From Hansschlegelia quercus (GTDB lineage: Bacteria > Pseudomonadota > Alphaproteobacteria > Rhizobiales > Methylopilaceae), in contig NZ_SIUB01000002.1 in the NCBI RefSeq assembly GCF_004310425.1, positions 62,001-126,000 of the forward strand: a stretch of DNA of 64,000 nucleotides. The letters are read 5' to 3'. A program made the translations under genes and the position numbers. The notes below the pieces were generated by a model. That model was given only the letters and a program-made list of their open reading frames with translations, had not been told where the DNA came from and searched no databases. Of this stretch, positions 34,000 to 37,218 are shown one piece after another (the first letter of the stretch is position 1; each line of letters starts with the position of its first letter).

Positions 34000-34051
34000 G
34001 GGCTGCGAGGTCCTCGCCGCTCGCGAGCGGCTTGCATCGAGCGCGAACCCC

Positions 34052-34140
34052 GCCATGCCCTGAAGGGGCATCCACGACTTGGACGTCGAGCTTCGTGACG
34101 GCCCGGCACGTCGTGGATGCCCGAAGACGGGCATGATGGC
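34052..34140. repeat. nested inverted repeat after the transglycosylase gene
   Basis: A perfect 13-bp inverted repeat (GGGCATCCACGAC 34066-34078 with GTCGTGGATGCCC 34110-34122) is flanked by a second pair (CATGCCC 34054-34060, GGGCATG 34129-34135). The whole can fold as one cruciform or two small hairpins. It carries no gene. Confidence 0.75.
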
Positions 34141-34726
34141 TGAGGATGTGAGCTGCGGCGGCGGCTCACGACCGCGTCCAAGGAATTTAATCCTTGACAT
34201 CTCGCTCTGTCCGTGATCCCTTGTGCGTGCTTCTCCCCGATGGGAAGGCGTGTCCGGACCGGCCGGCCATGCGGGGAGGAGGCGGCGCCTGCGGCGGGGA
34301 TGACCGGATGTCTCCGTCCCGGGGCGACTGCTGCGGCGCGGGCTTGAGGATTTGTTCCCTTAACGCCTGTGAAGAGACCGCCCCGCATTACGACGGGGGC
34401 CGCCTAGCATGGCGCGGGACCGCCTGGGCGGCGGAGGTCTTCGAGGCCGGCTCCAAAGGCCGGCGGAGAAGGCCTTCGCCTGAAGGCCGCACTCCTTCGG
34501 GAGGCGGCCGGACAAGCTCCGAGCGGTTTCGGATGTCGTCCGCAGGGTTCGCAAAAATGCCGTGCGTGGAGCGCCGGGCGACCGACAACTACTCTACCCC
34601 CCTGACGGTGGCCCGGCGCTCCCGCGCTTCCCCACTCGATGAGCGTCGCTGTTTGACCAGAGCTGGACGAGGAAGAACCGGACCGCCGGGCGATGACGCG
34701 CGTCCGGGCTTCTGCGCTTGATCCTG
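34141..34726. other. 586-nt hairpin-rich non-coding DNA, possible structured RNA
   Basis: Open frames here have no family resemblance and lack plausible starts, so I call it non-coding. It contains many GC-rich hairpins (for example around GCCGGC at 34448 and 34465, and GGAGG/CTCC pairs near 34490-34505). The most striking is a perfect 12-bp stem GGAGCGCCGGGC (34568-34579) with GCCCGGCGCTCC (34611-34622), continued inside by ACCG/CGGT, leaving a loop with CTACCCCCC. It could be a dispersed repeat or an RNA gene on either strand. Confidence 0.45.
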
Positions 34727-34872
34727 TGACGCCCCCTCACCCTTACCTTCTCCCGCGAGGGGAGAGGGGGCATCAACGTCGTGGGCTATGATCTCAAGAA
34801 GCGGCGCCGCTTCTTCCCTTCTCCCCTCGCGGGAGAAGGTGGCCGCGGCAGCGGCCGGATGAGGGGGCGTCA
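34727..34872. repeat. 146-nt palindromic element with 13-bp terminal inverted repeats
   Basis: Perfect terminal repeats TGACGCCCCCTCA (34727-34739) and TGAGGGGGCGTCA (34860-34872) enclose a second perfect 16-bp pair (ACCTTCTCCCGCGAGG 34745-34760 with CCTCGCGGGAGAAGGT 34825-34840). Each inner arm can also fold on itself. No coding capacity. It looks like a REP-pair or a small MITE-like unit. Confidence 0.85.
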
Positions 34873-35097
34873 AGCGTACAGCGCTTCGCCTCATTGGAAC
34901 GCCGCTACAGTCAAGTCATTGCGCCGTCGACTAAAGGACGGTTCGGGCCGCCGTCGCGTCAATTGCGCGCATCCATCGCTTCTGTCAGCTTCACGCCGTC
35001 GCCGCGCCTCCCGCGCGGAGGCCGCCTGAAGAGGGTCCCGGCTTTAGCTCGAGAGACCCCGCGGCGCTGGGAAACGCGTGGACGAGGGTGACGGACG
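34873..35097 (+). promoter_or_regulatory. upstream region of hppA
   Basis: This 225-nt spacer lies between the palindromic element and hppA and presumably contains the hppA promoter. I saw no clear -35/-10 pair. The ribosome binding site before ATG 35098 is GAGGGTGACGG. No gene is supported here. Confidence 0.4.
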
Positions 35098-37218
35098 ATG
35101 GCGCTGACGCTGATCGTATTGCTGGGACTGCTTTCAATCGTCTACGGGGTCTGGGCCACGCGCTCGCTGATGGAGGCGGACGCAGGCACGCCGCGCATGC
35201 AGGAGATCGCCGCCGCGATCGCCGAAGGCGCGCAGGCCTATCTGAAGCGCCAGTACACGACGATCGGAATCGTCGGCATCGTCATCTTCATCCTCGTCGC
35301 AGTCTTCCTGTCTCTGCCGGTCGCGATCGGCTTCCTGATCGGCGCGGTGCTCTCCGGCGCCGCAGGCTTCATCGGCATGAACGTCTCGGTCCGCGCCAAC
35401 GTCCGCACGGCGCAGGCGGCGTCCCACTCGCTAGGCGCTGGCCTCGAAGTCGCGTTCAAGTCCGGCGCGGTGACCGGCATGCTGGTCGCCGGCCTCGCGC
35501 TGCTCGGCGTCGCGATCTATTACGCGATCCTCACCGGCGTACTTGGCCACGAAGCGAATGAGCGCGTCGTCATCGACAGCCTCGTGGCGCTCGGGTTCGG
35601 CGCCTCGCTGATCTCGATCTTCGCGCGGCTCGGCGGCGGCATCTTCACCAAGGGCGCCGATGTCGGCGGCGACCTGGTCGGTAAAGTCGAGGCGGGCATC
35701 CCGGAGGACGACCCACGCAACCCCGCGACGATCGCGGATAATGTCGGCGACAATGTCGGTGACTGCGCGGGCATGGCCGCCGACCTGTTCGAGACCTACG
35801 CCGTCACCGTCGTCGCCACCATGGTGCTGGCCTCGATCTTCTTCGCCGGCAACGCGGCGCTTTCGAACCTCATCCTGTTCCCGCTCGCGATCTGCGCGGT
35901 CTGCATCGTGACGTCGATCGCGGGCACCTTCTTCGTGAAGCTCCCGAAGAACCAGTCGATCATGGGCGCGCTCTATCGCGGCTTCGGCGTCTCGGCCCTG
36001 CTTTCGCTGGTCGCGATCGCGCTTGTGACGGCGATCCTGGTCGGCTTCGGAACCGAGTACACGACCACGACGGGCGTCAGCTTCACGGGCTGGGACCTTT
36101 ACCTTTGCGCCGTCATCGGCCTCGCCATCACCGGCCTGATCGTCGTCATCACCGAGTACTACACCGGCACCGGCTACCGCCCGGTGCGCTCGATCGCGGC
36201 GGCCTCCGTCACTGGCCACGGCACCAACGTGATCCAGGGTCTCGCCATCTCGCTTGAGGCGACGGCTTTGCCCGCGCTCGTGATCATCGCCGGCATCATG
36301 GCGACCCATGCGCTGGCGGGCTTGTTCGGCATCGCGATCGCCGTCACCGCGATGCTGGCGCTCGCCGGCTTCGTGGTCGCGCTCGACGCTTTTGGGCCGG
36401 TGACCGACAACGCCGGCGGCATCGCCGAGATGGCGGGCCTGCCGTCCGAAGTCCGCGTCTCGACCGACGCGCTCGACGCCGTAGGCAACACCACCAAGGC
36501 GGTGACCAAGGGCTACGCGATCGGCTCGGCCGGTCTCGGCGCGCTGGTGCTGTTCGCGGCCTACACCTCGGACCTCAACCACTTCATCGCGAACCCTGCG
36601 ACCTACCCGTACTTCGCCGACGTGAAGCTCGATTTCTCGCTCGCCAATCCGTATGTCGTCGTCGGCCTGCTGTTCGGCGGAATGCTGCCCTTCCTGTTCG
36701 CGGCGATGGGCATGACCGCGGTCGGCCGCGCGGCTGCTGCGATCGTCGAGGAGGTTCGGCGGCAGTTCCGCGAGAAGCCGGGCATCATGGAAGGGCGCGA
36801 CCGGCCGGATTATGGCCGCGCGGTCGATCTGCTCACCAAAGCGGCGATAAAGGAGATGATCGTCCCGTCGCTTCTGCCGGTGCTGTCGCCTGTCGTCGCC
36901 TACTTCATCGTGCTTGCGGTCGCGGGCAAAAGCGAGGCGTTCTCGGCGGTCGGCGCGATGCTGCTCGGCGTGATCGTGACCGGCCTGTTCGTCGCGCTCT
37001 CTATGACCTCAGGCGGCGGCGCGTGGGACAACGCCAAGAAGTACATTGAGGACGGCCATCACGGCGGCAAAGGCTCGGACGCCCACAAGGCAGCCGTGAC
37101 CGGCGACACGGTCGGCGACCCCTACAAGGACACGGCGGGACCCGCGGTGAACCCGATGATCAAGATCACGAACATCGTCGCGCTCCTTCTCCTCGCCGTG
37201 CTCGCGCATGGCGGGTGA
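35098..37218 (+). CDS. hppA: membrane-bound proton-translocating pyrophosphatase, K+-independent type
   Basis: The enzyme couples hydrolysis of pyrophosphate to proton pumping across the inner membrane. The 706-residue product has about 16 hydrophobic segments and the catalytic cytosolic motif [21 protein letters not shown], followed by [19 protein letters not shown]. Near residue 467 the sequence is [14 protein letters not shown]. Lysine after GNTT marks the K+-independent class (K+-dependent enzymes have Ala). It is preceded by a long non-coding region and stands alone. Confidence 0.96.

Follow-up and report, generated by a model that had tools for sequence, protein, structure and literature searches.

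A candidate family of multicopy, structured non-coding RNA genes in Hansschlegelia and Methylopila

Introduction

The HEARO and omega RNAs of IscB–IsrB and TnpB are structured RNAs that are dispersed in genomes. OLE, ROOL and GOLLD RNAs are hundreds of nucleotides long, fold elaborately and have poorly understood functions, and kissing-loop contacts have been seen for ROOL (PMC12286853). Members of the MRSC class occur in several copies per genome and in varying gene contexts; the example given in PMC11109978 is a single long stem of which dozens of copies exist, some of them close to a transposase. Among Rhizobiales, the multicopy, trans-encoded sRNAs SmelA075 and SmelA099 contain repeated, similar hairpin modules (PMC3927594).

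The locus analysed here lies upstream of hppA in the window, by which we mean the whole 64,000-nucleotide stretch of Hansschlegelia quercus DNA under study. Its element shares with OLE, ROOL and GOLLD a length in the hundreds of nucleotides, an elaborate fold and covarying kissing loops, but it is shorter, has no Rfam match and occurs as many dispersed copies per genome. Like MRSC elements it is multicopy and found in varying contexts; unlike the example cited for that class it is built of several domains, has a predicted promoter and is anchored by a copy in conserved synteny, and of the MRSC traits multiple copies per genome are present whereas frequent transposase, integrase or nuclease neighbours are absent. 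It is multicopy and has hairpin loops, as do SmelA075/SmelA099, but its C-rich loop is not conserved. HEARO gave no match in Rfam scans of the element loci, and 6S RNA (RF00013) resembles the element in being an independent non-coding RNA gene.

The Rfam check suggested by an earlier, sequence-only reading of this DNA came back empty: with Rfam 15 (4227 families, a match being defined by the family's gathering score), no family matched at the element in the window or in 40 scanned loci, and a permissive scan of 34000–35100 gave 29 matches, all under the gathering score. RF00013 had no match at the window locus, and 6S RNA was rejected, the canonical 6S gene lying elsewhere in the H. quercus genome (C17:61142–61301, 67.8 bits). 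A TnpB guide RNA was also rejected, since PF07282 was found in 0/13 genomes of the genus (Methylopila/Hansschlegelia, H. quercus included), with controls matching in 6/14; the RRXRR domain of IscB occurred in 0/13 genus genomes, where the control itself matched in 0/14 genomes. By eye, the RNA bears no resemblance to the Br-REP elements of PMC5082802. The family is apparently undescribed, no report of it having been found in searches of the open-access literature.

Results

A dispersed RNA unit upstream of hppA

The sequence-only reading had singled out 34141–34726 as a hairpin-rich block whose best hairpin had a perfect 12-bp stem. That stem (34568–34579 with 34611–34622) is exact, and ACCG/CGGT prolongs it inward as described, giving 20 nt per arm with 90% complementarity; the loop, put at roughly 20 nt, measures 21 nt and contains CTACCCCCC. 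The stem forms the terminal hairpin, at the 3' end, of an RNA unit of ~530 nt that is dispersed in the genome and here occupies 34180–34709 on the plus strand. A non-coding unit is present at the locus as proposed, but its borders need a small correction, since conservation extends from 34180 to ~34709. Its features in the window copy are as follows.

34180–34195, plus strand: AT-rich palindrome AAGGAATTTAATCCTT (consensus AGGAATAWATTCCT), overlapping the −35 element.
34194–34221, plus strand: predicted promoter, with TTGACA at 34194–34199 and a weak, TG-preceded −10-like element at 34214–34221.
~34228, plus strand: putative start point.
34229–34709, plus strand: structured RNA gene, window copy, based on homology between the H. 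quercus copies and a fold z of −5.9.
~34229–34239 with 34272–34283, plus strand: helix P1, enclosing hairpin D1, with compensatory pairs within the genus.
34248–34252/34268–34272 and CCGG 34254–34257/34263–34266, plus strand: hairpin D1, loop ACCGG at 34258–34262.
34284–34331 (approximate borders), plus strand: hairpin P3, loop ACCGGA at 34303–34308.
34381–34398, plus strand: mid hairpin D2, stem CCCCG/CGGGG, loop CATTACGA at 34386–34393.
34564–34627, plus strand: terminal hairpin P5, core 34568–34587/34603–34622, followed by a C/U-rich tail.
34640–34709, plus strand: block CGCTGTTTGACCAGAGC ... CCGCCGGGCGATGACGCGCGTCCG after P5, conserved in the H. quercus copies.

The segment 34229–34628 folds at −238 kcal/mol (z = −5.9), with 0/100 shuffles as good. 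The transcript would end either at ~34630, just past the terminal hairpin, or at ~34709, past the further conserved block, which is possibly the 3' end of the predicted transcript; blocks resembling it are visible by eye in several other species, and CGCTGTTTGAC within it resembles a boxA-type antitermination element.

The H. quercus genome (3.58 Mb, 17 contigs) was searched with 34340–34740 as the query. Further copies matched the whole query or a portion of it at 93, 85, 79 and 86% identity, alongside more diverged ones, and the unit's dispersal, which had been raised as an option, is borne out by its occurrence at ~10 places in this genome. Six copies are full (the window, C7:703k, C11:95k, C7:540k, C9:428k and C16:39k), one is divergent (C8:524k), one is truncated (it precedes the C9 copy by ~650 nt) and two are cut by contig ends (C4 and C16). 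They align as a single unit, from the palindrome at 34180 to ~34709, with homology extending from ~−80 to ~+450 around GGCCGGCC at 34261. Conservation in relatives, the lack of which had been named as evidence against an RNA, was found throughout the genus: a 541-nt unit used as a DNA-level query, a search that misses diverged relatives, matched in 12/12 other genus genomes and in 1/48 other genomes. An exact-pattern scan of named genomes returned 21 stretches, 19 of them in Methylopila/Hansschlegelia records, one in a Chelatococcus sambhunathii S14 record and one, probably by chance, in an Aquabacterium MAG.

The stated absence of a credible protein gene also holds. No frame is common to the copies, and protein-level conservation of an open frame, another outcome held to count against an RNA, was not seen across them. 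Indels between same-genome copies are mostly not multiples of three (3/3 for the two most alike copies, and from 5/9 to 8/8 in the other five copy pairs); each of four of the six full H. quercus copies has a stop-free frame, yet the frame differs. A protein gene was rejected because no shared frame survives these indels.

Palindrome and promoter

Upstream of the RNA lies sequence like AGGAATAWATTCCTTGACAT. The pattern GGAAWWWWWTCCTTGAC occurs at 20 sites in 8/13 genus genomes, its reversed control at 0, and all 20 sites stand upstream of an RNA copy on the same strand, with only the 3' domain of the RNA found, 0.3 kb on, at three of them. The five genus genomes without an exact site have copies that bear variants. 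TTGACA is kept in most copies, with TTGACT, TTGGCA or TTGATC in some. A generic scan for sigma-70 promoters and terminators found no site, so the −10 element is proposed from conservation only. The housekeeping promoter of rhizobia has the form CTTGAC-N17-CTATAT, and resembles the promoter version in G131. By eye, TTGACA is replaced before the RNA in G019, G276, G174, G021 and G622 by another type of promoter, in which ACTTATCCCC (AACTTATCCCC) stands ahead of a TANACT-like element.

Fold, covariation and loop–loop contact

Compensatory changes, which the sequence-only reading had suggested looking for, were found on both sides of the stem and of other helices, and together with the conserved promoter pattern they favour the RNA gene that it had listed among its options. 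The 5' domain and the stems are the most conserved parts of the RNA. When the 5' domains of 34 genus copies were aligned with MAFFT, unguided, 30 pairs resulted, 10 of them with compensatory changes. With distant sequences added, both-side changes appear in 26/30 pairs, in an alignment that was fitted to the model and so leans towards it; the covariation score of this domain is 0.49, against 0.21 when shuffled and at most 0.14 when slid. Hairpin D1 is near-invariant in the genus and shows both-side changes in 7/9 pairs across families, while P3 shows them in 11/11 pairs across families and has compensatory pairs in the unguided genus alignment as well. For D2, a stem of four or more pairs persists around a CAYUANGA-type loop in 28/32 genus copies, with the stem letters changing, and a D2-like hairpin can be seen by eye in other families too. 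In the terminal hairpin P5, 99.6% of cells are paired and 3/17 pairs have both-side changes; 15/500 shuffles reach three such pairs and none reaches the covariation score.

The loop of D1 is complementary to the loop of P3 in 28/33 sequences, where 10,000 shuffles gave 14.4 on average and never more than 22; the five misses are two truncated rows, L168 with its inserts, G174 and G021. The D1 loop varies among ACCGG, ACCGU, ACCGA and GCCGU and the P3 loop among CCGG, ACGG and UCGG, the changing position being G–C, U–A or A–U, with one U–A case in H. quercus itself (C8:524k). This is good evidence for a predicted loop–loop contact between D1 and P3, which could form within one molecule or between two. 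Some copies fell outside particular comparisons: L066, L067 and L069, without the core pattern, are absent from alignments A2 and A3 and from the tree of copies; L078 and L079, which run into contig ends, were used in neither alignment; L083, in which no 3' hairpin was found, is not in A2; and L075, which contains an N, was left out of the 32-row tree.

Synteny and copy evolution

ETF-QO was found in 12/13 genus genomes, and 11 of these 12 have an RNA copy 1.2–4.2 kb downstream on the same strand; the exception is G007, whose genome is 88% complete and was searched at the DNA level only. In several species the copy at this locus is followed by a DUF3617 gene and an FKBP gene. A tree of 32 copies, in which some genomes are represented by a subset of their copies (G012, for example, by five), groups copies by genome, with 14 changes where the shuffled mean is 23.6, 0/200 shuffles are as low and the least possible is 12; L068–L073 is its sole sequence-level ortholog pair. 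An old ETF-QO locus combined with copies that resemble their genome-mates implies either that the copies evolve in concert or that amplified copies have replaced older ones.

The copy L185 (position 1681, G012) is 5'-truncated and begins abruptly beside unrelated sequence, although it is 95–100% identical to full copies of its subtype. Contigs break inside RNA copies; an rRNA neighbourhood was rejected as the cause of the contig-end copies, as 40 loci scanned contained no rRNA, only tRNAs (at two loci) and one suhB.

Spread outside the genus

The model searches scored 10–14 candidates per genome, so that positives outside the genus are minimum counts. Models built from the genus only were positive in 15/297 and 22/297 genomes of the order, H. 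quercus and its genus included. They placed 5' and 3' domains side by side on the same strand in 4/4 places in G019, which belongs to another family, and found adjacent domains also in G276; in G131 and G207 they found 3' domains. The 5'-domain model R3 was positive in 18/295 genomes of the order (H. quercus, nine of its genus and eight others) and in 3/385 genomes of the class, H. quercus included. Once distant members had been added to the model, it detected two complete-looking copies in G622, from another order, and gave hits in G113 and G234. Because R3 includes several distant sequences, its hits on those genomes are by construction; the independent hits are those of R1/R2 in G019, G276, G174, G131 and G207 and of R3 in G622, G113 and G234. 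These model hits suggest a patchy spread outside the genus, reaching some relatives in other families and in a single further order. In three G276 loci (L168, L169 and L170), tandem hairpins of the type TTGCGCTACCGGCCTTCGGCCTACTTGAGCG, reminiscent of expansion segments, separate the 5' domain from the mid hairpin.

A phage origin was rejected, as a pattern search of IMG/VR gave 0 matches and no phage record matched the RNA. Plasmid spread was likewise set aside, the single match, 52 nt long (E 1e-3) in a Shinella megaplasmid, being probably due to chance.

Neighbouring genes

RNA copies other than the window copy adjoin unrelated genes, and outside the genus no general neighbour protein was found; in both G019 and G014, one copy has recA, named by eye, as a neighbour. 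A GIY-YIG nuclease frame was seen near 6/84 RNA loci, at least four of them at the ETF-QO locus, and near 0/16 control loci, which have a smaller total length than the RNA loci. The frames are L065:3683–4024, L072:3661–3981, L075:4156–4500, L182:2702–2986, L237:2136–2420 and, in another family, L168:34–420. Because 78/84 RNA loci lack such a frame, it leaves the odds between the readings below unchanged. IS1595-type transposase frames were seen near 2/84 RNA loci, one beside L162 and a 33% relative near L088. No transposase or integrase is among the 15 Pfam families that match at least two of 111 flank frames (from the best 25 of 135 families), where RuvC and GIY-YIG match two frames each. A first clustering of neighbours was set aside, its two large clusters consisting mostly of frames that overlap the element itself.

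Interpretation

We consider it probable that the unit represents a self-standing, multicopy non-coding RNA gene family, covered by no Rfam 15 family, that acts in trans and is amplified for dosage. Each full copy would bring a promoter with it (in this genus, the palindrome and TTGACA) and have a layout of compact 5' domain (P1/D1, P3), mid hairpin, variable middle and GC-rich terminal hairpin. The RNA would be transcribed, rigidly folded and held by the kissing contact, and could act in trans as an RNP, a scaffold-like or a regulatory RNA; additional copies would increase its dose, all responding to a single dedicated signal at the palindrome. What the sequences offer in favour of such a gene family are the copies, the conservation of the putative promoter, the covariation, the loop complementarity, the old syntenic locus and the similarity within genomes. 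With many copies and a promoter sequence of its own, the RNA may be abundant.

The main rival is a selfish, mobile or repeat RNA element, in which an enzyme would copy the RNA or DNA around the genome and the fold would serve its own spread. The number of places in one genome, the position of the window copy, found at no equivalent place in relatives, the truncated L185 and other fragments, the likeness of same-genome copies and the contigs that break inside them are all consistent with it, as are the GIY-YIG frames at 6/84 loci against 0/16 controls and the IS1595-type frames at 2/84; such traits define the MRSC class of PMC11109978. We nevertheless hold it unlikely, if deserving of weight: no inverted repeat at the unit ends is among the matches listed for 34000–34850, no enzyme recurs at most copies (in the best 25 of 135 Pfam families), and both the locus downstream of ETF-QO, in 11/12 species, and the promoter have been kept. 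A repeat that works at the level of DNA only, with no RNA role, would account for the REP-like palindromes that flank the RNA and for the block that travels with one subtype in G012, but is hard to reconcile with a promoter, a fixed domain order, compensatory changes that include G–U and loop–loop complementarity, and appears highly improbable.

The sequence-only reading had compared the exposed loop with anti-Shine–Dalgarno sRNAs, and a trans-acting sRNA that blocks ribosome-binding sites with its C-rich terminal loop CUACCCCCC would suit several observations: the loop is C-rich in all six full H. quercus copies, a YTTCC tail follows the hairpin in 29/33 copies, and the multicopy SmelA075/A099 of Rhizobiales have been proposed to block ribosome-binding sites (PMC3927594). 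As a family trait, though, such a loop does not stand, since CCCC occurs in just 8/33 terminal loops, six from H. quercus and two from its relative G005, and in none beyond these; the C-rich loop is a local trait of one species and one relative. The 5' domain and stems, rather than the loop, are what is best conserved, and the unit is 400–500 nt long; an sRNA of this kind is very improbable. A cis leader or riboswitch of hppA, also envisaged by that reading, draws on the position of the RNA upstream of hppA on the same strand. The gene is present in 13/13 genus genomes, with a transglycosylase directly upstream in eight including H. quercus, but the 1.5 kb upstream of hppA contained no RNA in the 12 other genus genomes, so that the arrangement exists at one of 13 hppA loci. 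Downstream of the RNA, hppA has a promoter-like block of its own (~34960–34993, ATTGCG ... CTGTCAGCTTC), which is common to orthologs without the RNA, and the other copies stand beside unrelated genes. Being lineage-specific and upstream of this block, the RNA is no hppA leader, a role that we regard as having next to no likelihood; the window copy looks young and is probably a secondary, lineage-specific insertion with no predicted control of hppA.

The trans-acting gene family could be extended to a bolder proposal, which we find doubtful as a whole: a previously unrecognised class of large, structured RNAs in bacteria, distributed across Alphaproteobacteria, with many copies that homogenise themselves as rRNA genes do. 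The two 5' loops, which in most genus copies are CCGG/CCGG and hence self-complementary, might drive the formation of RNA homo-oligomers or of an abundant RNP. A dedicated regulator might bind the AGGAAT–ATTCCT palindrome, which in the genus was found only at the promoters of the RNA. RNA classes that covary this much and yet are covered by no Rfam family are uncommon. The family would also be a bacterial gene family other than rRNA with signs of concerted evolution, in which host benefit and selfish spread are separable experimentally; its carriers, Methylopila and Hansschlegelia, are environmental methylotrophs in culture, which makes direct experiments feasible.

Flanking repeats and further observations

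The hairpins at 34066–34122 and 34745–34840 are separate REP-like palindromes on either side of the RNA unit, and such palindromes also adjoin other RNA copies. In G012, one RNA subtype is accompanied by a block of REP-like repeats, the two moving together as a unit of ~940 nt. The record JADBEO010000034.1 (L102), labelled Chelatococcus sambhunathii S14, contains an RNA of the Methylopila type, and its name looks wrong. An Rfam match to the suhB/mmgR sRNA lies at L092:4682–4759, ~1.2 kb from an RNA copy of G012.
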